From contig NZ_JAQJZJ010000004.1 of NCBI RefSeq assembly GCF_027988105.1, positions 124,001 through 188,000 of the forward strand: a stretch of 64,000 bases of DNA. Reading direction: 5' to 3'. The stretch is from Pseudomonas aestuarii. Its GTDB lineage: Bacteria > Pseudomonadota > Gammaproteobacteria > Pseudomonadales > Pseudomonadaceae. The position numbers were made by a program, and so were the translations under genes. Positions 6,094-50,625 of the stretch are shown here, in pieces; positions within the stretch are counted from its first letter, which is position 1, and every line of letters starts with the position of its first letter. The notes below the pieces were generated by a model. It did not search any database. It was given only the letters and a program-made list of their open reading frames with translations, and was not told the origin of the DNA.

Positions 6094-7095
6094 TTAGCCG
6101 GCACGCACCTGGGCGACAATCTCGAAGGCGCGCAAGCGGTCGGCGAACTCGTAAAGATCGCAGGTGAAGATCAGCTCGTCGGCGCCGGTCTGCTCCAGCA
6201 GCACCTCCAGGCGCGCCCGGACTTTCTCCGGGCCGCCGACCACCGCCATGCCGAAGAAGCTGGCAACCGCCTCTTTTTCGTGGGGCAGCCACAGCCCCTG
6301 CATGCTCTTGACCGGCGGTTTCTGCACCAGGCTGTGGCCACGGATCAGGGCAAGAATGCGCTGGTAGGCCGAGGTCGCCAGGTAGTCCGCCTGCTCGTCG
6401 CTGTCGGCGGCTACCAGTGGCACACCGAGCATCACATAGGGCTCATCGAGCACCGCCGAGGGTTTGAAGTGGTTGCGGTAGACGCGAATCGCCTCGTGCA
6501 TGTAGCGCGGCGCGAAGTGCGAGGCGAAGGCATAGGGCAGGCCTTTCTCGCCCGCCAACTGGGCGCTGAACAGGCTCGAACCGAGCAGCCAGATCGGCAC
6601 ATTGGTGCCTGTGCCCGGCATGGCGATGACCCGCTGATTCGGCGTGCGTGGGCCCAGATAGCCCTGCAACTCCTCGACATCGCGGGGGAAGTCATCGGCG
6701 CTGCCGCTGCGCTCGCGGCGCAGGGCATGGGCGGTGAACTGGTCGGCGCCGGGCGCGCGGCCCAGTCCCAGGTCGATGCGCCCCGGGTACAGGGTGGCGA
6801 GAGTGCCGAACTGCTCGGCGATCACCAACGGGGCGTGATTGGGCAGCATCACCCCGCCGGAGCCGACACGAATGGTCGTGGTGCCCGCGGCCAGGTAACC
6901 CAGCAGCACCGCGGTCGCCGAACTGGCGATACCGTCCATGTTGTGGTGCTCGGCCACCCAGAAGCGGGTGAAACCGAGGCGCTCGACATGTCGGGCCAGT
7001 GCCAGGGAGTTGTGCAACGCCTGCTCGGGTCCGCCGTCATCGCGGATCGGCGCGAGGTCGAGGGTGGAAATCTTGGTCTGTGCGAGTGCGCTCAT
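6094..7095 (-). CDS. Luciferase-like (LLM) flavin-dependent oxidoreductase
   Basis: A 333-residue TIM-barrel protein of the bacterial luciferase-like family, close to E. coli YhbW (group 1). Recognisable blocks are [19 protein letters not shown] near the N-terminus, [29 protein letters not shown] and [18 protein letters not shown]. It would use reduced FMN from a partner reductase; the substrate is unknown. The ATG at 7095 was chosen because an AGGGG Shine-Dalgarno lies just upstream; a start at 7161 would add 22 residues that do not look like the family. Confidence 0.88.
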
Positions 7096-7442
7096 CTGCC
7101 CCTGCCTGTTCGAATACGGTCTATCGAGGCGAGTCGACACCCGAGTGGAATGCGTGGGCATACTTTACGGCGTCCAGGGACGACCGGCCAGCAGGCGCCG
7201 CCTGCGCTGCACGGCGCGCGGCAGATCCTATGTCAGTGCGCCAGGACTGCAGGAGGGTGGCAAACCGACAACCCATCCACCAGCGCGGGGGATGGGTTGC
7301 CGGTTATCCACCCGGCTAGCGTCGCCCGCATCGACCCAGGCCAATCCGGGGCACGACCGTGGTCACAAGCCCCCTGCCCCGGATTGCCTTCGGGCTGCAT
7401 ATTTTCAAGGATCGCTGGGCGGCTGTTAAGCCAAGGGGCTGC
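7096..7442. other. Intergenic region, 347 bp
   Basis: The stretch between the flavin monooxygenase start and the end of the dodecin gene holds no supported gene. It contains one REP-like palindrome (listed separately at 7269-7299), a TTATCCACC sequence one base off a DnaA box just after it, and presumably the promoter of the monooxygenase gene, which I could not place. Confidence 0.6.
7269..7299. repeat. REP-like inverted repeat
   Basis: The arms CAACCCATCC (7269-7278) and GGATGGGTTG (7290-7299) form a perfect 10-bp inverted repeat with an 11-base loop. The GGATGGGTTG unit recurs at other intergenic sites in this window (near 25.7 kb and 39.4 kb), so it looks like a dispersed palindromic element of the Pseudomonas REP type. 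Confidence 0.6.
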
Positions 7443-7658
7443 TCAGCTATCGCTGATGCGGAAACCGACCTTGAGGGTCACCTGATAGTGGCCGACTTTG
7501 CCGTTTTCGATATGCCCGCGGTTTTCCAGGACTTCGTACCATTCCAGGTTGCGGATCGACTTGGCACACTCGGCCAGGGCATTGTTGATCGCCTCATCGC
7601 TGCTGATGCGCGAAGAGCCGACTACTTCGACTTTCTTGTAGGTGTGGTGATCAGACAT
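7443..7658 (-). CDS. Dodecin family flavin-binding protein
   Basis: A 71-residue protein, the usual dodecin length, which assembles into a hollow dodecamer that binds flavins (FMN, riboflavin or lumichrome) and acts as a flavin buffer. Family hallmarks seen are the YKKVEVVGSS start, the SSDEAINNALAECAKSIRNL helix, the key tryptophan in LEWYEV, and the GHYQVTLKVGF end strand. It is preceded by a clear Shine-Dalgarno (reverse complement of the GAGGAGAAACC region just upstream). It lies downstream of trpI on the same strand, 106 bp away. Confidence 0.92.
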   Translation of the reverse strand: MSDHHTYKKVEVVGSSRISSDEAINNALAECAKSIRNLEWYEVLENRGHIENGKVGHYQVTLKVGFRISDS

Positions 7659-7764
7659 GGCGGTTTCTCCTCGAAGGGGTAGTTAAACGCTAGTCGATAA
7701 GTCGGCAGTCCGCGGTTTCTCTTTGCTCGGATGAGCGGTACAGGCGGCGGTCGAATCGCCGCCT

Positions 7765-8652
7765 TCAGCCCGCCAACTCGCCGCGCAGCCACTCGGCCAG
7801 GCACTGCGCGCGCTTGTCCAGGCGCCGCGCGGGAACCCACAAGGCCAGCCGCGCCGGGGTTGCGACGAACCCCCAGGGGGCCACCAGACGCCCGGCTGCC
7901 AGATCGTCGGCAACCAGTTGTTGCGGCGCGATGGCCACGCCCAGGCCAGCCGCGGCGGCCTCCAGCAGGTAGTAGAGATGCTCGAAGCCCTGACCCAGCT
8001 TGAGTGCGCCCGACTCGAGGCCATTGCGCGCCGCCCAGCTCGGCCAGGCTTGCGGACGCGAGCTGGTGTGCAGCAAGGGTTCGCCCAGCAGTGCCGCTGC
8101 GGGTGCCTGGTGCAGCGCGGCAAAGCGCCCATAGCGCGGACTCAAGACCGGTCCTATGTGCTCGACCGCCAGCTCGAACACCTGCATGTCCGCCGGCCAG
8201 GGTGGCTCGGCAAACCACAGGGTGGCGTCGACCCCGGCGCGGCGTGGATCCAGCTCACCCTCGCTGGCCGAGAGTTGCAGGCGCAACTCCGGCAGTTCGC
8301 GATTGAGCCGATCCAGGCGCGGAATGAACCAGCGTGCCAGCAGGCTGCCCGGGCAGGCCAAGACGAAGGGCGCCTCGGCCTGCCCCTGCTGCAGTTCGCT
8401 GCAGACCGCCCGCAGCCGCTCGAACGCCTCGCTGCTGACATCGCGCAGGCGTACCCCGGCATCTGTGAGTTTAAGGCCACGCCCGTCCTTGACGAACAAG
8501 GCCACGCCGAGGTGCTCCTCCAGCGCCCGGAGCTGGCGGCTGACCGCGCCGTGGGTGACATGCAGCTGTTCTGCCGCCAGGCTGACGCTCTGCAGGCGGG
8601 CGGCGGCCTCGAACGCACGCAGGGCATTGAGGGGGGGGAGCGCTCGGGTCAT
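7765..8652 (-). CDS. trpI: TrpI, LysR-type activator of trpBA
   Basis: A 295-residue LysR-family regulator that in Pseudomonas activates trpBA in response to indoleglycerol phosphate. The N-terminal winged helix-turn-helix (about residues 7-65) includes [20 protein letters not shown] and [16 protein letters not shown], typical of the TrpI/GcvA branch; the rest is the periplasmic-binding-protein-like effector domain. The assignment to TrpI rather than another LysR protein rests on its divergent position 140 bp from trpB. The ATG at 8652 begins [15 protein letters not shown], as expected for the family. Confidence 0.92.
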
Positions 8653-40017: not shown

Positions 40018-40791
40018 ATGTCGATATTGCAGACCATCAGAACCTTCCTCTTCTACCTGTTGCTGTCTGCCAGCGCGTGCTTCTGGTGCATCCTCAGCAT
40101 GTTCGTCGCACCCTTCCTGCCGTTTCGGGCGCGCTACCGTTTCGTCAATCAGACCTGGTGCCGCTGCGCCGTCTGGCTGGCCAAGGTGGTGATGGGTATC
40201 AGCTACCAGGTCACAGGCCTGGAGAACATCCCGCAGCGGCCCTGCGTGATCCTTGCCAAGCATCAGAGCACCTGGGAGACCTTCTTCCTCTCGGCGCTGT
40301 TCGAGCCACTGAGCCAGGTGATCAAGCGCGAACTGCTCTATGTGCCGTTCTTCGGCTGGGCCATGGCCATGCTCAAACCCATCGCCATCGACCGCAGCAA
40401 TCCCAAAGCCGCCCTCAAGCAACTGGCCAAGCAGGGTCACGAGCGCCTGGAACAGGGCGCCTGGGTGCTGATCTTCCCGGAAGGCACGCGGATCGCCACC
40501 GGCCAGATCGGCAAGTTCTCCCGGGGCGGCGCCGCCCTGGCGGTCAACGCCAACCTGCCGGTATTACCCATCGCCCATAACGCTGGCGAGTTCTGGCCCA
40601 AGCAAGGCTGGGGCAAAACCCCCGGCACCATTCAGGTGGTAATAGGCCCGGTCATGCAGGCCGAAGGCACAGGCCCGCGGGCGATTGCCGCGTTGAATGA
40701 TCGCGCCTTCGCCTGGATCAGCCAGGCACAGCGCGATATCGGTGCCCTGAGCACTGCAGATGCAGTCTGCGACACCAGCGATAGCCTCTAG
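40018..40791 (+). CDS. 1-acyl-sn-glycerol-3-phosphate acyltransferase-like (PlsC family)
   Basis: A 257-residue membrane acyltransferase with an N-terminal hydrophobic helix (TFLFYLLLSASACFWCILSM) and the four PlsC motifs: AKHQSTWETFFL (H-X4-E in place of the more common H-X4-D), YVPFFGWAMAM, FPEGTRIATG, and VLPIAHNAG. It would acylate lysophosphatidic acid to phosphatidic acid. In P. aeruginosa the equivalent gene (lptA) is next to gyrB; here an approximately 7.4-kb block separates them. The start has AGGA upstream. Confidence 0.92.
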   Translation: MSILQTIRTFLFYLLLSASACFWCILSMFVAPFLPFRARYRFVNQTWCRCAVWLAKVVMGISYQVTGLENIPQRPCVILAKHQSTWETFFLSALFEPLSQVIKRELLYVPFFGWAMAMLKPIAIDRSNPKAALKQLAKQGHERLEQGAWVLIFPEGTRIATGQIGKFSRGGAALAVNANLPVLPIAHNAGEFWPKQGWGKTPGTIQVVIGPVMQAEGTGPRAIAALNDRAFAWISQAQRDIGALSTADAVCDTSDSL

Positions 40792-41051: not shown

Positions 41052-41657
41052 ATGCTGTCCATTTATCAACTCAAACCACACTTCCAGAACCTGCTGCGTC
41101 CCGGCGTAAAGTACCTCTACGACAGCGGCGTGAGTGCCAATCAGGTAACGTTGGCGGCGGCCATGCTGTCGCTGCTGCTCGGCAGCCTCCTGGCGATTTT
41201 CCATCAACACGCCTGGCTGTTCGCCTTGATCCCGCTGTGGATGCTGCTGCGCATGGCGCTCAACGCCGTGGACGGCATGCTCGCCCGCGAGTTCGACCAG
41301 CAATCGCGGCTCGGCGCCTACCTCAACGAACTCTGCGACCTGGTCGCCGACGGCGCCCTGTACCTGCCATTCGCCCTGCTGCCCGGCGTCTCGCCACAGC
41401 TGGTGGTGGTGCTGGTGCTGTTCGCCCTGATCAGCGAATACGCTGGCGTACTCGGCCCTATGGTCGGCGCCTCGCGCCGCTACGATGGGCCCATGGGCAA
41501 GAGCGACCGGGCCTTCTGTTTCGGCGTGCTGGGTGCCGGTGTGGCCAGCGGCCTGCTCCCTGCCAGCGGGATCAACGGCCTGCTCGCCCTGATTCTCGCC
41601 CTGCTGCTCTACACCCTCTATAACCGCGTGCGCCAAGGCCTGGCCGAAGCGGTGTGA
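41052..41657 (+). CDS. ynbA: CDP-alcohol phosphatidyltransferase, YnbA-like
   Basis: A 201-residue inner-membrane enzyme with about six hydrophobic helices. It would transfer a phosphatidyl group from CDP-diacylglycerol to an alcohol. The CDP-OH-P motif reads DGMLAR, 8 residues, G, AYL, N, ELC, D: the third aspartate of the classical DGxxAR(x8)G(x3)D(x3)D is Asn. E. coli YnbA has the same Asn from memory, so this may mark the subfamily. The ATG at 41052 starts MLSIYQLKPHFQNLLRPG, close to E. coli YnbA; the frame is open upstream to 40920. It is the first gene of a six-gene operon. The alcohol acceptor is unknown. Confidence 0.88.
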   Translation: MLSIYQLKPHFQNLLRPGVKYLYDSGVSANQVTLAAAMLSLLLGSLLAIFHQHAWLFALIPLWMLLRMALNAVDGMLAREFDQQSRLGAYLNELCDLVADGALYLPFALLPGVSPQLVVVLVLFALISEYAGVLGPMVGASRRYDGPMGKSDRAFCFGVLGAGVASGLLPASGINGLLALILALLLYTLYNRVRQGLAEAV

Positions 41658-41685
41658 CCGACTGATTCGAAATAGGGATATCTCG

Positions 41686-43443
41686 ATGCGCGAAGCCCAA
41701 GAACTGCGTTTTACCACCCATGACGGCGTAGAGCTGTTCTATCGCCACTGGCCTGCCGAGGTCGCTGACACTGCCGCGCCCAAGCGGGCCATCGTGATGT
41801 TCCATCGTGGCCATGAGCATGGTGGGCGCATGGCCCATCTGGTCGACGAATTGGCTATGCCCGGTTTCGAATTCTTTGCCTGGGATGCCCGCGGCCATGG
41901 CCTGTCGCCGGGCGAACGTGGCGACAGCCCGAGCTTTGCCACCAGCGTCCGCGACGTGCAGACCTTCATCGAGCATATCGTCGCCAGTCATGGACTGGCC
42001 GAGGCAGATCTCGCGGTACTGGCGCAGAGCGTCGGCGCCGTGGTGGTATCGGCCTGGGCCCATGACTACGCGCCGAAGATCCGCGCCCTGGTGCTCGCCT
42101 CGCCGGCCTTCAAGGTCAAGCTCTACGTGCCCTTTGCCAGGCCGGGCCTCAAGCTGATGCGCGCCTGGCGCGGCAATTTCTTCGTCAACAGCTACGTCAA
42201 AGCCAAGTTCCTAAGCCACGACCCGGCCCGCATCGCCTCCTTCGACAACGATCCACTGATCACCCGGGCGATTTCGGTCAATATGCTGCTCGGCCTGAAC
42301 GACGCCGCCGAGCGGGTGGTGGCCGATGCCCAGACGATCCAGATCCCTACCCAGTTGCTGATCTCCGGCGCCGACTTCGTGGTGCAGCGTAAACCCCAGG
42401 AGCAGTTCTTCGATCGCCTCGGCAGCCTGCACAAAGAGAAGCACATCCTGCCCGGCTTCTTTCACGACACCCTCGGCGAACGTGACCGCAGCCACGCCTT
42501 GAACCGCATCCAGCGCTTTCTCCTGCACTGCTTCGAAGAGCCGCTAGCATGTCCTTCGTTACTGGATGCCGACCGCCTCGGCGCGACCTGCGCCGAGGCC
42601 GAAAGCCTGGCTGCGCCGCTGCCGCCTAACTCGCTACGCGACCTCTACTGGCGCGCCACCCGCACCGGCCTCAAGTTCGGCAGCAGCCTGTCCGACGGGG
42701 TCAGGCTGGGCTTCGACACCGGCTTCGACTCCGGCAGCACGCTCGACTACGTCTACCGCAACCGGCCCAGCGGCAAGTCGGCGCTCGGCAAGTTGATCGA
42801 TCAGAACTACCTGAACTCCATCGGCTGGCGCGGCATCCGCCAACGCAAACTGCACGTGGAGGAGCTGCTGCGCCTGGCCATGGCCAAACTGCGCATGCAG
42901 GGCCAAGCCGTGCGCATCGTCGATATCGCCGCCGGCCATGGCCGCTATATCCTCGAAGCCCTGGACGGCATGGAACAACAACCCGACTCGATCCTGCTGC
43001 GCGACTACAGCGACATCAATGTGTGCGACGGCGCCGCGCTGATCGAACAGAAAGGCCTGGCGGCTATCGCCCGTTTCGTCAAAGGCGACGCCTTCGATCG
43101 CGACGATCTGGCCACACTCGATCCCAAGCCGACCCTGGCGGTGGTTTCCGGCCTGTATGAGCTGTTCGCCAGCAACCAGATGGTCGGCAACTCCCTAGCC
43201 GGTCTGGCGGCTGCGGTGGAAGAGGGCGGCTATCTGGTCTACACCGACCAGCCCTGGCACCCGCAACTTGAATTTATCGCCCGGGCCTTGACCAGCCACC
43301 GCAGCGGCGAAGCCTGGGTCATGCGCCGACGCAGCCAGGCAGAGATGGATCAGCTGGTCGAGGCCGCAGGTTTCCGCAAGCTGACCCAGCGCATCGATGA
43401 ATGGGGCATTTTCAGCGTCTCCCTGGCGCAGCGGGTGTGCTGA
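41686..43443 (+). CDS. ynbC: Bifunctional alpha/beta-hydrolase and SAM methyltransferase, YnbC-like
   Basis: A 585-residue two-domain protein, the same length as E. coli YnbC. The N-terminal alpha/beta hydrolase (about 1-290) resembles monoacylglycerol lipases: oxyanion region MFHRGHEHGGRM, nucleophile Ser115 in LAQSVGAV, Asp in LLISGADFVVQ and His in PGFFHDTLGE. The C-terminal half (about 380-585) is a class I methyltransferase with motif I VRIVDIAAGHGRYILEA (about 407). Both active sites look intact. AGGGA precedes the ATG, 28 bp after ynbA; the stop overlaps the ynbD start. Role in the lipid pathway unknown. Confidence 0.9.
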   Translation: MREAQELRFTTHDGVELFYRHWPAEVADTAAPKRAIVMFHRGHEHGGRMAHLVDELAMPGFEFFAWDARGHGLSPGERGDSPSFATSVRDVQTFIEHIVASHGLAEADLAVLAQSVGAVVVSAWAHDYAPKIRALVLASPAFKVKLYVPFARPGLKLMRAWRGNFFVNSYVKAKFLSHDPARIASFDNDPLITRAISVNMLLGLNDAAERVVADAQTIQIPTQLLISGADFVVQRKPQEQFFDRLGSLHKEKHILPGFFHDTLGERDRSHALNRIQRFLLHCFEEPLACPSLLDADRLGATCAEAESLAAPLPPNSLRDLYWRATRTGLKFGSSLSDGVRLGFDTGFDSGSTLDYVYRNRPSGKSALGKLIDQNYLNSIGWRGIRQRKLHVEELLRLAMAKLRMQGQAVRIVDIAAGHGRYILEALDGMEQQPDSILLRDYSDINVCDGAALIEQKGLAAIARFVKGDAFDRDDLATLDPKPTLAVVSGLYELFASNQMVGNSLAGLAAAVEEGGYLVYTDQPWHPQLEFIARALTSHRSGEAWVMRRRSQAEMDQLVEAAGFRKLTQRIDEWGIFSVSLAQRVC

Positions 43444-44798
43444 TTGCAGGCGCAGCGGTAAGTCGCGAAGCCGGGTTGTGGAAGCGCGGTGTGCTCTGGC
43501 TGCTGCTCTTGGCGCCGCTTTTTTTCGCCAGTTACAGCTTTGCCAACTGGCTAAGCGCTCAACGGGCGGACGTCGGCACCCTGGTGTTCGCCTGGGAAAG
43601 CCGGATACCGCTATGGCCGTGGACCATCGTGCCTTACTGGTCGATCGACCTGTTATACGGCTTGTCCTTTTTGCTGCCGGCGACCCGCCGGGAGATGGAT
43701 CGACACGGCCTGCGTCTGCTCAGCGTGCAGCTACTGTGCATCGCCGCGTTCCTGCTCTGGCCACTGCGTTTCACCTTCGAGCGGCCGGAACTGGATGGCC
43801 TGTTCGGCACGCTGTTCGATGTGCTGATGGGCTTCGACAAACCCTTCAACCAGGCGCCATCCCTGCATATCGCCCTGCTGGTGGTGCTCTGGCTGTGCTT
43901 CGCCCGCTATGCCACGGGTCTCTGGCGGGTATTGCTGCATGCCTGGTTCTTCTTGATCGGCATGTCGGTGCTGACCACTTGGCAGCATCATTTCGTCGAT
44001 GTGCCCACCGGGGTACTGGCCGGTTGCTGGTGCGTCTGGCTCTGGCCGCAGCAAGGCCCCAGTCCGCTGCTGGATTGGCAGCTGACGTGCGCTGCGCAGC
44101 GTTGGCGCCTGGCGTTGCGCTATGGCTTCGCCGCGGCCCTGCTGACGGCTGTGGCGGTGAATCTGGGAGGTGCCTGGCTATGGCTGCTATGGCCGGGATG
44201 CTCCTTGCTGCTGGTGGCGCTGAACTATGCGCTGTTCGGCGCGGCGGGCTTTCAGAAGGATGCCAATGGCCGCCTGAGCAGCGCCGCCTGCTGCCTGCTC
44301 GCGCCCTATCTGCTTGGCGTCTGGCTGAATTCACGCCTATGGACGCGTAAGCATCCGCAGGCAGACGAAGTCGGCGAGGGGGTTTGGCTTGGACGTATTC
44401 CTTCAGCAGGGCAGGCCGAACAGTTTCATGCCCAGCTGGACCTCTGTGCCGAGCTGCCGAACTGGTCGCCGGCCAAAGCCTATCGCTCGCTGCCGGTGCT
44501 CGACCTCACCGTACCCTGCCCGAACACGCTCCTGGCCGCCGCACAGGCAATCGAAGCGCTACGCCAGCAGGGTCCGTTGTTGGTCTATTGCGCGCTCGGC
44601 TATTCACGTAGCGCCTGCGCGGTAGCCGCCTGGTTGCTGCACAGCGGTCGTTGCCAGAACCTGTCAGAGGCGCTCGCCCAGCTGCGCCAGGCACGCCCAC
44701 AAGTGGTATTGAGCCAAGCCCACCTGCGAGCGTTAGAGGACATGCTGCAATTGCCCGGCAACGCGGCACCGGCGGTAGCATCAGCCCATGGTTACTGA
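43437..44798 (+). CDS. ynbD: Membrane PAP2-like and dual-specificity phosphatase, YnbD-like
   Basis: A 453-residue protein. The N-terminal ~300 residues hold many membrane helices and a PAP2/inositolphosphotransferase-like site: PSLH (residues 141-144) and HHFVD (about 184-188). The C-terminal ~120 residues are a cytoplasmic tyrosine/dual-specificity phosphatase domain with VYCALGYSRSA, catalytic Cys385 and Arg391. Together they suggest dephosphorylation of a lipid phosphate, as PgpB or PTPMT1 do for phosphatidylglycerol phosphate. The start is uncertain: GTG at 43437 overlaps the ynbC stop by 7 bases and was chosen because no Shine-Dalgarno supports the ATG at 43401. Confidence 0.85.
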   Translation: MLIAGAAVSREAGLWKRGVLWLLLLAPLFFASYSFANWLSAQRADVGTLVFAWESRIPLWPWTIVPYWSIDLLYGLSFLLPATRREMDRHGLRLLSVQLLCIAAFLLWPLRFTFERPELDGLFGTLFDVLMGFDKPFNQAPSLHIALLVVLWLCFARYATGLWRVLLHAWFFLIGMSVLTTWQHHFVDVPTGVLAGCWCVWLWPQQGPSPLLDWQLTCAAQRWRLALRYGFAAALLTAVAVNLGGAWLWLLWPGCSLLLVALNYALFGAAGFQKDANGRLSSAACCLLAPYLLGVWLNSRLWTRKHPQADEVGEGVWLGRIPSAGQAEQFHAQLDLCAELPNWSPAKAYRSLPVLDLTVPCPNTLLAAAQAIEALRQQGPLLVYCALGYSRSACAVAAWLLHSGRCQNLSEALAQLRQARPQVVLSQAHLRALEDMLQLPGNAAPAVASAHGY

Positions 44799-45243
44799 GA
44801 TGCAACTGTATACGGTGGCCTGCCTGCTACGCCGGGGCAAGACCCTCGATGGACTGTCCAGCGCGCTCAGCGTACTCGCCCTGCTGATCGGCCTCGCGCC
44901 GCTGTTGGGCGCCGTGATACAGCCATTGGCCGCCACGCTCTGCGCCCTGTTGCTGCTGCTGGGGCTGGCTGAAAAATATTGGGCGTTGCGTGTGGCCCTG
45001 GATGCCGAGCTATTCCAGCACCTGGCGGGCGACGCCGAGCAACTGGCGCGGCGTACCGTCGAGCTCGATCAGGCACTTGCCAGACTCGGTCTACAACCGC
45101 CGAACAATACCGCGCGCAGCTGGGTCGAGCGCAGTCGCGGCGCGTTGCGCTTGTTACGTCTGCAGGCACTCTCGCTGCTCGCGCAATTGTTGCTGGCCGT
45201 GGCGATCCTGCTCGGCCTGCCTTGGTTTTCAATCCCTGGATAA
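44788..45243 (+). CDS. Small membrane protein of the lipid operon, unknown function
   Basis: A 151-residue protein with two hydrophobic helices in the first half (about 24-65), a charged helical middle (DAELFQHLAGDAEQLARRTVELDQALARLG) and one more hydrophobic helix near the C-terminus. I do not recognise the family. It overlaps the end of ynbD by 11 bases (an ATG at 44800 is an alternative start) and is 9 bp before the next acyltransferase gene, so it is firmly inside the operon. It could be a scaffold for the flanking lipid enzymes; this is a guess from position. Confidence 0.75.
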   Translation: MVTEMQLYTVACLLRRGKTLDGLSSALSVLALLIGLAPLLGAVIQPLAATLCALLLLLGLAEKYWALRVALDAELFQHLAGDAEQLARRTVELDQALARLGLQPPNNTARSWVERSRGALRLLRLQALSLLAQLLLAVAILLGLPWFSIPG

Positions 45244-45252
45244 GGCATCTTC

Positions 45253-45873
45253 ATGCTCGCTTCCCTGACCGCTTTTGCCATTACCTCCGCCGCACGCCTG
45301 CTGACAGGCGCCCGTGCGCTCTGGATCGGCTGCACCGCCCAGCCAGTGCAACGGCTGTACTACGCCAACCACAGCAGCCATGGCGACTTCGTCCTGCTCT
45401 GGGCCTCGTTGCCGCCAGAATTGCGGTACACGACCCGCCCGGTGGCCGGTGCCGACTACTGGCAGCGAGACGGCTTGCGTCGCTATCTGATCAACCGGGT
45501 ATTCAATGGCGTACTGATCGACCGCGAGCGCAGTTCGCCCGACGCCAATCCGCTGCAACCCATGCTTGACGCCTTGGACCACGGCGATTCGTTGATCCTG
45601 TTCCCCGAGGGCACGCGCAATCTGGAGGATGGCCTGCTGCCATTCAAGAGTGGCCTCTACCACCTGGCCCAGGCGCGGCCACAGGTGGAGCTGATCCCGG
45701 TATGGATCGCCAACCTCAGCCGCGTCATGCCCAAGGGCAGGGCGCTGCCGCTACCGCTGCTGTGCACCCTGAGTTTCGGCGAGCCGCTGCAGCGACTCGA
45801 AACAGAGAATAAGAACGCGTTCCTCGAACGCGCGCGCAATGCCCTGCTGGCCATGGCACCCGAGGAGGTTTGA
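45253..45873 (+). CDS. Lysophospholipid acyltransferase (PlsC family) of the lipid operon
   Basis: A 206-residue acyltransferase with the classical PlsC motifs: YANHSSHGDFVLLW (H-X4-D), NGVLIDRERSS, FPEGTRNLEDGLLPFKSGLY, and VWIANLSRVMPKG. No strong N-terminal membrane helix is obvious. It would supply phosphatidic acid or acylate the product of the pathway. It is the second PlsC-type gene in the window, but its motifs differ from the first (H-X4-E there), so the two are not recent duplicates. The next gene (CdsA-like) follows with the stop and start almost overlapping. Confidence 0.9.
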   Translation: MLASLTAFAITSAARLLTGARALWIGCTAQPVQRLYYANHSSHGDFVLLWASLPPELRYTTRPVAGADYWQRDGLRRYLINRVFNGVLIDRERSSPDANPLQPMLDALDHGDSLILFPEGTRNLEDGLLPFKSGLYHLAQARPQVELIPVWIANLSRVMPKGRALPLPLLCTLSFGEPLQRLETENKNAFLERARNALLAMAPEEV

Positions 45874-45874
45874 G

Positions 45875-46819
45875 ATGGATCACAACACCCTGTTGCTGTT
45901 CGCCGGTATCGGCGCCCTGTTACTGCTGGCATCGACCATTGGCTTTTTGCTCAAGCGCCGCAGCGGCGACACACCCAATCCGGTCATCGACAACCTCAAT
46001 GCGCGGATCAACGCCTGGTGGGTGATGGTGCTGGTGATAGGCGCTGCCTTTCTGTTCGGCGATACCGGCGTCATCTTGCTGTTCTACTGCGTCTCGTTCT
46101 ATGCCCTGCGCGAATTCATGACCCTGACCCCAACCCGGCGCAGCGATTACCCGGCACTGGTGGCGGCCTTCTATTTCGCCCTGCCCATGCAGTACCTGCT
46201 GATCGCGTTGGACTGGTACGGCTTGTTCGCTATCTTCATCCCGGTTTACCTGTTTCTTCTGCTGCCGATTCTCGCCTCCCTGGGCGGCGATACCACGCGC
46301 TTCCTCGAGCGGGCGTCCAAGGTGCAATGGGGCCTGATGATCACGGTGTACTGCATCTCCTCGGTACCGGCACTGCTGACCCTCGACATTCCCGGATATG
46401 AAGGACGCAACCTGTTGCTGATCGCCTGGCTGATCATCGTGGTGCAGCTCTCCGATGTGCTGCAATACGTCTGCGGCAAGCTATTAGGCAAACACAAGAT
46501 CGCCCCACACCTGTCGCCCTCGAAGACTGTGGAAGGCTTTATCGGCGGTGTCAGCCTGGCTTGCCTGGTTGGCGCGCTGCTGTGCTGGATCACCCCGTTC
46601 AACTTCTGGCAGGCGGCGCTGATGGCCCTGGCCGTCAACCTGCTCGGGTTTTCCGGTGGCCTGGTGATGTCGGCGATCAAACGTGATCGCGGGGTAAAGG
46701 ATTGGGGCCATATGATCGAAGGCCATGGCGGCATGCTCGACCGCCTGGATTCGGTCTGCTTCGCCGCCCCGATATTCTTCCACTTCGTGCGCTACTGGTG
46801 GGTACCGGCACTGGTCTAG
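45875..46819 (+). CDS. ynbB: Phosphatidate cytidylyltransferase, YnbB/CdsA-like
   Basis: A 314-residue inner-membrane protein with about eight hydrophobic helices that would convert phosphatidic acid and CTP to CDP-diacylglycerol, the donor for the YnbA-like enzyme. CdsA-family motifs are clear: HLSPSKTVEGFIGG and the C-terminal signature KRDRGVKDWGHMIEGHGGMLDRLDS. GAGGAGGT (45862-45869) precedes the ATG. It closes the six-gene operon. It is separate from the housekeeping cdsA, which in Pseudomonas is elsewhere. No clear terminator follows. Confidence 0.9.
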   Translation: MDHNTLLLFAGIGALLLLASTIGFLLKRRSGDTPNPVIDNLNARINAWWVMVLVIGAAFLFGDTGVILLFYCVSFYALREFMTLTPTRRSDYPALVAAFYFALPMQYLLIALDWYGLFAIFIPVYLFLLLPILASLGGDTTRFLERASKVQWGLMITVYCISSVPALLTLDIPGYEGRNLLLIAWLIIVVQLSDVLQYVCGKLLGKHKIAPHLSPSKTVEGFIGGVSLACLVGALLCWITPFNFWQAALMALAVNLLGFSGGLVMSAIKRDRGVKDWGHMIEGHGGMLDRLDSVCFAAPIFFHFVRYWWVPALV

Positions 46820-47441: not shown

Positions 47442-47790
47442 CAGAACAACAACAAAAACAGTAAATAAAGAAAAACATCTCGACTCTGGCAAAACAAAAA
47501 CAAAACCGCAGAGAAGCAGCAAACCGATTTTTTTGGAGAGGGTAGGCTTTTCCGGGTTCATCCCGGCAACCAGTTTTAGAAGAATAAAACTACCTTGAGG
47601 TAGCTCGTTCTGGTTGGATCACCTGCTGACAAGGGGCTGTACCAGCAACCAAAAAAATACGTTTGCCCTTGATCCCTCTCGGGGATCTGATGAACAAGCC
47701 GTCGATCACTAATAACAACAACAGATTGCTGAACAAGAAAAACAAAGCACGGATTAATTATTAGAGGGGAGCCAATGGCTCCCCTCAGTG
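47442..47790 (+). ncRNA. CrcZ/CrcY/CrcX-family small RNA
   Basis: A roughly 350-nt non-coding transcript. These RNAs titrate Hfq/Crc and relieve carbon catabolite repression when CbrA/CbrB is active. Evidence: sigma-54 promoter at 47416, CbrB-like site upstream, and at least five A-rich AAnAAnAA-type motifs: AACAACAACAAAAAC (47445-47459), AAATAAAGAAAAAC (47463-47476), AAAACAAAAACAAAAC (47491-47506), AATAACAACAACAG (47711-47724), AACAAGAAAAACAAAG (47732-47747). Small hairpins lie between (47552-47566; CTACCTTGAGGTAG near 47590; GATCCCTCTCGGGGATC near 47671) and a strong hairpin ends it. The stretch is AT-rich, with no supported protein gene. Which member of the family it is cannot be decided without neighbours or alignment. 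Confidence 0.85.
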
Positions 47791-47796
47791 CTTTCT
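47764..47796 (+). terminator. Terminator hairpin of the Crc-sequestering RNA
   Basis: A perfect 10-bp stem GAGGGGAGCC (47764-47773) and GGCTCCCCTC (47777-47786) with a 3-base loop. The following AGTGCTTTCT is a weak T-run. It gives an RNA of about 350 nt, a size in line with the family. Confidence 0.8.
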
Positions 47797-47863
47797 GGCT
47801 TCTCCATCTTTCGCAGGTCAGTCTCGGCTCTCTAGGGTGAATGAACGACAGGATGATGCTATG

Positions 47864-48204: not shown

Positions 48205-50625
<2,421 letters not shown>

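Follow-up and report, generated by a model that had tools for sequence, protein, structure and literature searches.

A six-gene locus of Pseudomonas aestuarii with ynb homologues as a candidate phospholipid-synthesis module with an optional accessory block

The six-gene locus and its conservation

The window analyzed here is a 64,000-nucleotide stretch of Pseudomonas aestuarii (NCBI RefSeq assembly GCF_027988105.1, 5.16 Mb; contig NZ_JAQJZJ010000004.1, positions 124,001 to 188,000 of the forward strand). It carries a putative operon of six genes, named A to F, four of which resemble the ynb genes of Escherichia coli. On balance, the operon was read as a private phospholipid-synthesis module, the kernel genes A, E, and F, with an optional finishing block, the accessory genes B, C, and D.

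All six open reading frames (ORFs) were open on the + strand (Table 1). Five of the six proteins scored above the curated Pfam cut-offs for the families named in an earlier reading of the same letters, hereafter the first-pass annotation, and D matched no Pfam family. The tight packing described there was also found: A and B are separated by 28 bp and D and E by 9 bp, whereas B and C overlap by 43 bp and C and D by 11 bp. F would follow directly after the stop codon of E with a spacing of 1 bp. The longest ORF of F would start at 45839, within gene E. Translation probably starts at 45875 instead, because the likely ribosome-binding sequence GAGGAGG precedes the ATG at that position. The operon is flanked by a PlsC-type gene (40018-40791) on one side and gyrB (48205-50622, - strand) on the other. 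Based on gene B, the nearest named relatives were Pseudomonas borbori and P. tumuqii with 90% identity, among the best 80 of 211 named loci.

Table 1. Coordinates of the operon genes, domains, and motifs in the window
Feature	Coordinates	Strand	Basis
Gene A, YnbA-type CDP-alcohol phosphatidyltransferase, 201 aa, kernel	41052..41657	+	ORF; PF01066
Signature N71-x2-D74-G75-x2-A78-R79...G88-x3-N92-E93-x2-D96-x3-D100 of A	41262..41351	+	Alignment of 107
Gene B, YnbC-type hydrolase-methyltransferase fusion, 585 aa, accessory block	41686..43443	+	Pfam; AlphaFold2
Monoacylglycerol-lipase-like Hydrolase_4 domain of B, residues 31-267, candidate triad S115/D230/H260	41776..42486	+	Pfam
Methyltransferase domain of B, PF12147 (Methyltransf_20), residues 275-583, motif I D413-x-A-x-G-H-G-R-Y	42508..43434	+	Pfam
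Gene C, YnbD-type fusion of PAP2 and dual-specificity phosphatase, 465 aa, accessory block	43401..44798	+	ORF; Pfam
PAP2 domain of C, residues 124-218, P153-S-L-H156 and Q195-H-H-x2-D200, predicted periplasmic site	43770..44054	+	Pfam; alignment; loop charges
Dual-specificity phosphatase domain of C, residues 338-446, C397-x5-R403 and D368, predicted cytoplasmic	44412..44738	+	Pfam; alignment; loop charges
Gene D, small membrane protein, 151 aa, hydrophobic at about 18-62 and 119-151, accessory block	44788..45243	+	ORF; hydropathy
Gene E, PlsC-type acyltransferase, 206 aa, NHSSHGD and FPEGTR boxes, kernel	45253..45873	+	PF01553, 62.5 bits
GAGGAGG, likely ribosome-binding sequence for F	45862-45868	+	Sequence reading
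Gene F, YnbB-type CdsA paralogue, 314 aa, K-R-D-x-G-V-K-D-W-G...E-G-H-G-G-x-L-D-R-x-D-S, kernel	45875..46819	+	PF01148

Homologous loci were collected by homologues of gene B. The resulting 106 loci consist of 26 from a phylum sample and the best 80 of the 211 named loci, of which 79 are titled Pseudomonas and one Pantoea. This set is biased to close relatives and includes two locus pairs with identical B proteins. Of the 106 loci, 90 showed A B C D E F and another 9 showed A B C E F, so the linkage of the six genes is not due to chance. The remaining seven loci showed A B C with A reversed (two loci), reversed F and E before A B C D, A B, A B E F, A B C D, and A B D E F (one locus each). With a more sensitive search, a D-like ORF was detected at 22-41 bits in seven of the nine A B C E F loci. 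The first-pass annotation had placed the operon beside the origin, which applies to this genome. Among the 106 loci, however, gyrB was contained in the retrieved stretch of only 22, and a further 10 showed the glyS-gmhB-plsC flank alone.

The genes also occur on plasmids. On a Citrobacter plasmid, the order is A F E B C, and the next gene encodes a small hypothetical protein that matches D marginally (11.7 bits). On an E. coli plasmid, A F E B occur with a C fragment interrupted by an IS66 element. Burkholderia and Shinella plasmids carry all six genes, further rearranged. On the Pseudanabaena plasmid ABRG53d (L148 4640-7795), A F E occur with a stand-alone methyltransferase. Because the same genes recur in such varied orders and surroundings, sequence comparison points to a functional unit.

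To delimit this unit, a YnbA profile was run over 398 Pseudomonadota genomes with matches accepted at E up to 1e-10, and 52 genomes matched. Methyltransf_20 (PF12147), the mark of gene B, was found in 27 genomes of what, by their handles, are the same 398, and all 27 belonged to the 52. The chance of this nesting is 8e-28 on the assumption of independent genomes, which shared ancestry denies, and 4e-11 when counted by genus. The other 25 genomes have A without PF12147, and 22 of these 25 loci were looked at. A, E, and F occurred together in 19 of the 22. C and D gave no match of at least 25 bits in the 22 loci, although a divergent D could escape because it is poorly conserved. A single weak B-like match was located 2 kb away (L210, 78 bits). 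Furthermore, A E F stand alone at the same gyrB-plsC site in another Pseudomonas genome (G190), and the three kernel genes also lie on a Caballeronia plasmid that has none of B, C, and D.

Three of the 22 loci were exceptions. L206 has a truncated A and an F, and E was not found. L207 (G287, 6743-7972) has only A, as a YnbA-like stretch that ends a 410-residue frame and is degenerate at the first signature position. L209 has A alone, and a YnbB-type gene (43%) lies elsewhere in its genome. In G127, outside the 22, a YnbB-type gene lies less than 1 kb from A. Parts missing from a locus were mostly found elsewhere. F is absent beside A and B in G296, G253, and G043, and all three genomes have a YnbB-type F elsewhere, adjoined by E in two. 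C is missing from the locus in G204 and G296, and was found elsewhere in one of the two, G204, about 42 kb off and with a D-like ORF. In G043, a second A-like gene accompanied by an E and an F of its own was found in addition to A B C D.

Because the PF12147 genomes nest within the YnbA genomes, A, E, and F occur without B, C, and D, and displaced parts mostly lie elsewhere, the distribution separates a kernel of A, E, and F from an optional accessory block of B, C, and D that depends on it. The earlier proposal that the genes for PlsC, the CdsA-like enzyme, and the CDP-alcohol transferase belong together was supported by this kernel. The wider proposal of a nearly complete six-gene pathway is recast as this kernel together with the optional genes B, C, and D. 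The genome search for co-occurrence and gene order suggested in the first-pass annotation recovered A B C (D) E F in 99 of the 106 loci, whereas 25 of the 52 YnbA genomes had no PF12147.

Predicted active sites of the six proteins

Apart from a change to asparagine in A, every catalytic residue compared in A, B, C, E, and F was invariant.

Protein A matched CDP-OH_P_transf (PF01066) with 34.3 bits, above the gathering score of 22, and its homologues begin at the same place. CDP (cytidine diphosphate)-alcohol phosphotransferases share the signature D1xxD2G1xxAR...G2xxxD3xxxD4, in which eight residues are described as absolutely conserved, D1-D3 bind metal, and D4 is the likely base (PMC4634129). 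In YnbA, Asn replaces both D1 and D3 in each of the 107 sequences (the window and its 106 homologues), and the other signature positions are invariant there. The residue after the second Asn is Glu (E93) in 19 of 19 sequences. Asn at both positions was also observed in Moraxella, Fusobacterium, and Pseudanabaena homologues, where the signature Arg is Lys, Asn, and Arg, respectively. Another 22 A-type ORFs gave the same result in 21 cases, with L207 as the exception. By comparison, canonical controls had D, D, D, D in 32 of 32 and Asn-Asn in none; this control set is narrow, as it consists of the 30 top-scoring PF01066 loci of 114 gammaproteobacterial genomes, probably mostly PgsA, and the PgsA and PssA of this genome. 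YnbA was filed as a divergent subfamily of the CDP-alcohol phosphotransferases rather than a canonical member, because it matches the PF01066 profile and departs from the eight-residue signature. The Asn residues at D1 and D3, read from the alignment, are an addition to the first-pass annotation.

Two subtypes were distinguished. The YnbA type has V, L, I, or M after D4, and the second type (13 loci) combines Arg at this position with a hydrophobic residue where the signature has its Arg. Among curated families, both scored highest with archaetidylinositol phosphate synthase and phosphatidylinositol-phosphate (PIP) synthase, far below the cut-offs. Two side observations concern relatives of A. 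At L166 (6095-8435), a transferase of the second subtype is accompanied by a PlsC and a YnbB-type CdsA of its own; A B C D lie elsewhere in the same genome. On a Moraxella osloensis plasmid (L145 6254-8746), a single open frame contains both a YnbA-like stretch (185 bits) and a hydrolase-like stretch (215 bits), a methyltransferase-like stretch follows after a stop codon, and genes for a patatin-like phospholipase, a short-chain dehydrogenase, a CdsA-like protein, and a PAP2 protein adjoin. If this gene has not decayed, it would link YnbA and the hydrolase directly.

These similarities raise the possibility of a phosphatidylinositol(-phosphate) pathway of mycobacterial or archaeal type. YnbA belongs to the same superfamily as archaetidylinositol phosphate synthase and the PIP synthase MtPgsA1 and probably has the same fold, and its best PDB profile match was a PIP synthase (E 5.6e-11). 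R195 of MtPgsA1, which helps to bind the acceptor phosphate, has its counterpart R192 in 107 of 107 sequences. K150xxR153 of A resembles R152xxR155 of MtPgsA1, one residue off in the alignment and beside a flexible loop. However, A scored 68.6 bits against archaetidylinositol phosphate synthase (NF040950, cut-off 180; ten relatives 56-79 bits) and 47.1 bits against PIP synthase (NF045883, cut-off 170). R94, just after D4 in MtPgsA1, is reported to be conserved in enzymes that use inositol phosphate and to be critical for this substrate (PMC6506517), whereas this position in YnbA is V in 83, L in 13, I in 9, and M in 2 of the 107 sequences. Compared with the solved PIP synthase, YnbA also differs in its Asn residues at D1 and D3 and has no match for K135 and R137. 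Furthermore, a search for inositol-1-phosphate synthase (PF01658) gave no match in the genome, although the compound could be taken up from outside. With the curated cut-offs, the R94 position, and PF01658 all against it, an inositol lipid was rejected and is regarded as very unlikely. A phosphorylated acceptor is possible for YnbA, because the counterpart of R195 is kept throughout. The alcohol phosphate named as acceptor in the first-pass annotation is putative: this one phosphate-binding Arg is kept, and R94 is replaced in all 107.

Protein B matched Hydrolase_4 with 242 bits and Methyltransf_20 with 509.5 bits, and its AlphaFold2 model had a pLDDT of 88.5 and a pTM of 0.91. The hydrolase half aligned with the monoglyceride lipase 7ozm over 272 residues (Z 30.4, root-mean-square deviation 2.4). 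S115, D230, and H260 were invariant in 107 of 107 sequences. B thus shares the fold and the Ser-Asp-His residues with monoacylglycerol lipase and lysophospholipase L2, but it is fused to a methyltransferase and its nucleophile elbow reads A-Q-S-V-G, with Ala first in 104 of 107, instead of G-x-S-x-G. The methyltransferase half is of class I (3ocj, Z 23.1, 255 residues, root-mean-square deviation 3.4); this structure match and the weak profile matches indicate no substrate for it. As a side observation, a relative of the fusion with 38% identity lies on a Kosakonia cowanii plasmid (L146 6992-8620) beside genes for acyl carrier protein, beta-ketoacyl synthase, MaoC, and FabG, which stand in place of the lipid kernel. 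The Kosakonia fusion may serve another pathway.

A lipase-like domain in the operon suggests remodelling or salvage of lipids, in which this domain would deacylate, PlsC would reacylate, and CdsA and YnbA would rebuild ordinary lipids. The monoacylglycerol-lipase fold encoded in the same operon as PlsC is in line with this, as is a weak curated match of B to lysophospholipase L2, far below its cut-off. However, the kernel occurs without the hydrolase in the 19 of 22 loci described above, and YnbA is unlike the canonical CDP-alcohol enzymes. We consider salvage rather improbable.

Protein C matched DSPc with 49.2 bits. The PAP2 residues P153, S154, H156, Q195, H196, H197, and D200 were invariant in 104 of 104 sequences and agree with the C2 and C3 motifs (PSxH; H-x3-D). 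In the dual-specificity phosphatase half, C397 and R403 were invariant in 104 of 104 and D368 in 16 of 16. D368 aligned with an Asp of Tk-PTP, and we take the equivalent Asp to be the general acid of dual-specificity phosphatases. The topology was derived from the helices of an AlphaFold2 model (pLDDT 82.2, pTM 0.80) and from loop charges over 16 sequences. Loops 90-98, 169-175, 214-234, and 282-300 are positive, with mean K+R of 1.8, 1.5, 3.4, and 2.9 against D+E of 0.8, 0, 1.9, and 1.2. The two loops with the PAP2 residues are negative or uncharged (K+R against D+E, 2.4 against 3.2 and 0 against 0), and loop 54-72 on the same side is likewise negative (1.7 against 2.1). Because of these charges on the modelled helices, C probably has one active site on each face of the membrane, with the PAP2 site facing the periplasm and the cysteine phosphatase the cytoplasm. 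The first-pass statement that YnbD removes the phosphate would then apply to the cytoplasmic half alone, if the topology is right, and not to the PAP2 half.

Structure matches of the phosphatase half singled out no lipid phosphatase, since PTPMT1 (Z 16.2) was tied with protein phosphatases. PAP2 structures were absent among the matches listed for the model of C, which excludes nothing. Compared with PgpB/PAP2 lipid phosphatases and the PTPMT1-type phosphatidylglycerol phosphate (PGP) phosphatase, C keeps the PAP2 core residues and an intact Cys/Arg loop, but has both on one polypeptide with sites predicted on opposite faces. A D-like ORF adjoins C even where C is apart from the rest (L169, 45 bits), and D-like matches were obtained on the Shinella and Burkholderia plasmids (46 and 58 bits).

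In protein E, residues N39, H40, S42, H43, and D45 and the FPEGTR box were invariant in 103 of 103 sequences. Protein F matched CTP_transf_1 (PF01148) with 241.8 bits and kept D301, R302, D304, and S305 in 103 of 103. F shares this profile and the C-terminal GHGG-x2-DR-x-DS signature with CdsA, the CDP-diacylglycerol (CDP-DAG) synthase. However, it is a separate paralogue besides the housekeeping-type CdsA: the residue before GHGG is Glu in 99 of 103 F sequences and Pro in the other CdsA of this genome. In six of six genomes searched, F copies were 54-59% identical, and each genome had a second, less similar copy of housekeeping type.

The genome also encodes the canonical enzymes elsewhere: PgsA (188.5 bits; TIGR00560 cut-off 109.1, and below the narrower NF008090 cut-off), PssA (127.8 bits; cut-off 107), Pcs (409 bits; cut-off 300), and a second CdsA-type gene. 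Because the synthase genes for phosphatidylglycerol (PG), phosphatidylserine (PS), and phosphatidylcholine (PC) lie elsewhere, the operon product is probably a further phospholipid other than these three. This agrees with the additional product expected by the first-pass annotation. A back-up for ordinary PG or PC synthesis would fit PlsC, CdsA, and CDP-alcohol families, which are typical of housekeeping phospholipid synthesis. However, PgsA, PssA, and Pcs each pass a curated cut-off elsewhere in the genome, E. coli YnbB cannot substitute for CdsA (PMC6362211), and E. coli YnbD cannot replace PGP or undecaprenyl pyrophosphate (C55-PP) phosphatases (PMC7413402). A back-up for PG, PC, or PS was rejected as first choice on these grounds and is considered highly improbable.

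Expression signals and neighboring features

A sigma-70 promoter scan of the gap upstream of the operon gave no match. A scan for terminator-like sites yielded 9 against 5.9 +/- 2.4 by chance, i.e., near chance. Neither result bears on co-transcription of the genes. None of the six proteins matched PADLOC defence models, and a role in phage defence was rejected on that result.

Between the operon and gyrB lies a full-length CrcZ-family catabolite-repression small RNA (window 47443-47819, + strand; RF01675, 244.8 bits), with a sigma-54-like TGGCACG-N4-GTGC just upstream. The genome has three CrcZ-type small RNAs (349, 245, and 205 bits). The crcZ gene usually adjoins cbrB.

Flanks were clustered for 18 divergent loci, and shared neighbors were mostly confined to close relatives; one cluster (L043, L051, and L057) covers two families. 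The flank proteins included a citrate or dicarboxylate carrier twice (L056 and L147), and a WG-repeat protein, a WYL regulator, and others once each. At L053 (9208-11358), a WG-repeat protein of 717 aa is inserted between B and C. The A F E and methyltransferase genes of Pseudanabaena ABRG53d directly adjoin a nif gene cluster. L147 (NZ_CP084075.1), a Fusobacterium record of 2.1 Mb listed as a plasmid, is probably chromosomal, and the same mislabelling apparently affects several E. coli "plasmid" records with sizes of 4.8-4.9 Mb.

Proposed pathway and its relation to E. coli ynb genes

In E. coli strain A34, the profiles of A, F, B, and C matched one locus with 233, 235, 487 and 314 (two pieces), and 436 bits, respectively, and ynbC is annotated as frameshifted in that assembly. 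The resemblance of A, B, C, and F to ynbA, ynbC, ynbD, and ynbB pointed out in the first-pass annotation was thereby confirmed. Relatives of B were found in 4559 of 5426 E. coli genomes. The homologues lie side by side in E. coli and YnbA has the same Asn-Asn motif, but the order there is A F B C, whereas in the window B, C, D, and E lie between the ynbA and ynbB homologues.

The functions of the ynb genes, described in the first-pass annotation as not established, are partly so. YnbA has been termed uncharacterised, after an old cholinephosphotransferase guess was withdrawn (PMC3781023). Disruption of ynbC led to polyphosphate accumulation and diffuse LtrA, with polar effects possible (PMC2435150), and ynbB was listed among very weakly expressed genes important for fitness (PMC5053530). 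Other accounts are screens, expression lists, and fitness remarks (PMC13313352, PMC9068703, PMC13031359). On the other hand, YnbB makes CDP-DAG in vitro and its overproduction raises MPIase (PMC6362211, PMC7018664), although ynbB is dispensable (PMC6362211) and, according to a review, phospholipids stay unchanged in its knockout (PMC7018664), and YnbD has already been tried, without success, as a substitute for PGP and C55-PP phosphatases (PMC7413402). The six-gene set and the A-E-F kernel are apparently undescribed among the literature matches listed, in a search with subscription papers and preprints outside it.

These E. coli data support another reading, in which the product is a pyrophosphate-linked glycolipid like MPIase, CDP-DAG and a sugar-1-phosphate are joined by YnbB or YnbA, and PAP2 recycles the lipid pyrophosphate. 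Besides raising MPIase, YnbB restores it without restoring bulk phospholipid (PMC6362211, PMC7018664), and the altered metal ligands of YnbA could suit a phosphate nucleophile. However, a ynbB knockout leaves MPIase unchanged according to a review (PMC7018664), ynbB is not required for phosphoglyceride-linked enterobacterial common antigen (PMC8609368), and the link to methyltransferase and lipase-like domains is unexplained by such a product. We regard an MPIase-like product as unlikely.

For the preferred reading, a private kernel with an optional finishing block, we infer the order of substrates as follows. PlsC (E) would acylate lysophosphatidic acid to phosphatidic acid, and the YnbB-type CdsA (F) would convert this to CDP-DAG. 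YnbA (A), with its rewired N-x2-D-G...N-E-x2-D-x3-D site, would transfer the phosphatidyl group to an acceptor X that differs from the glycerol-3-phosphate, serine, and choline used by the canonical enzymes of the cell. The kernel would thus yield a minor phospholipid, phosphatidyl-X. The finishing block would act in a subset of genomes. There, the dual-specificity phosphatase half of C, in the cytoplasm, may take a phosphate off the new head group, the methyltransferase half of B would methylate the head group or the lipid, and the lipase-like half of B would trim or transfer one acyl chain. Once the lipid is flipped, the PAP2 half of C would act on the periplasmic face, and D would keep the parts together at the membrane.

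Several observations weigh against this pathway. With its Asn changes, YnbA could be inactive or have other chemistry. The PAP2 match of C is marginal (27.5 bits against a cut-off of 27.2). No recurrent head-group gene was found in the flanks, among 20 flank proteins looked at as part of all flanks, and the gene order gives no hint of the head group. The genome of G287 (L207) has no YnbB-type gene, nor have G268 and G368 (weak A matches, outside the 22), and the G296 genome has no C. The E. coli locus has no E, the PlsC gene, and no D-like gene; therefore, the gene set is not indivisible. Finally, E. coli YnbB reportedly serves MPIase synthesis (PMC7018664).

A bolder version, to which we assign a low probability, places YnbA and its relatives in a catalytic type of their own, the second within the CDP-alcohol phosphotransferases. 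This type would be marked by Asn at D1 and D3 and Glu beside D3 and would work with its own PlsC and CdsA, and the finishing block would process the lipid on both faces of the inner membrane. The reaction would be new to the superfamily: for example, the phosphatidyl group might go to a phosphate oxygen, which would yield a pyrophosphate-linked glycolipid, or the substrate might be a CDP-lipid distinct from ordinary CDP-DAG.

YnbA-like genes occur in 52 of the 398 Pseudomonadota genomes sampled, nearly always beside their own acyltransferase and CDP-DAG synthase where examined, and are present in part in E. coli. The division into kernel and finishing block ranks the genes for first expression and predicts their order of action, and the fixed Asn-Asn motif provides a sharp test of ordinary against other chemistry. 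YnbB has been regarded as dedicated to MPIase, but the joint occurrence of its gene with those of YnbA and PlsC suggests that its main task is to provide YnbA with CDP-DAG.

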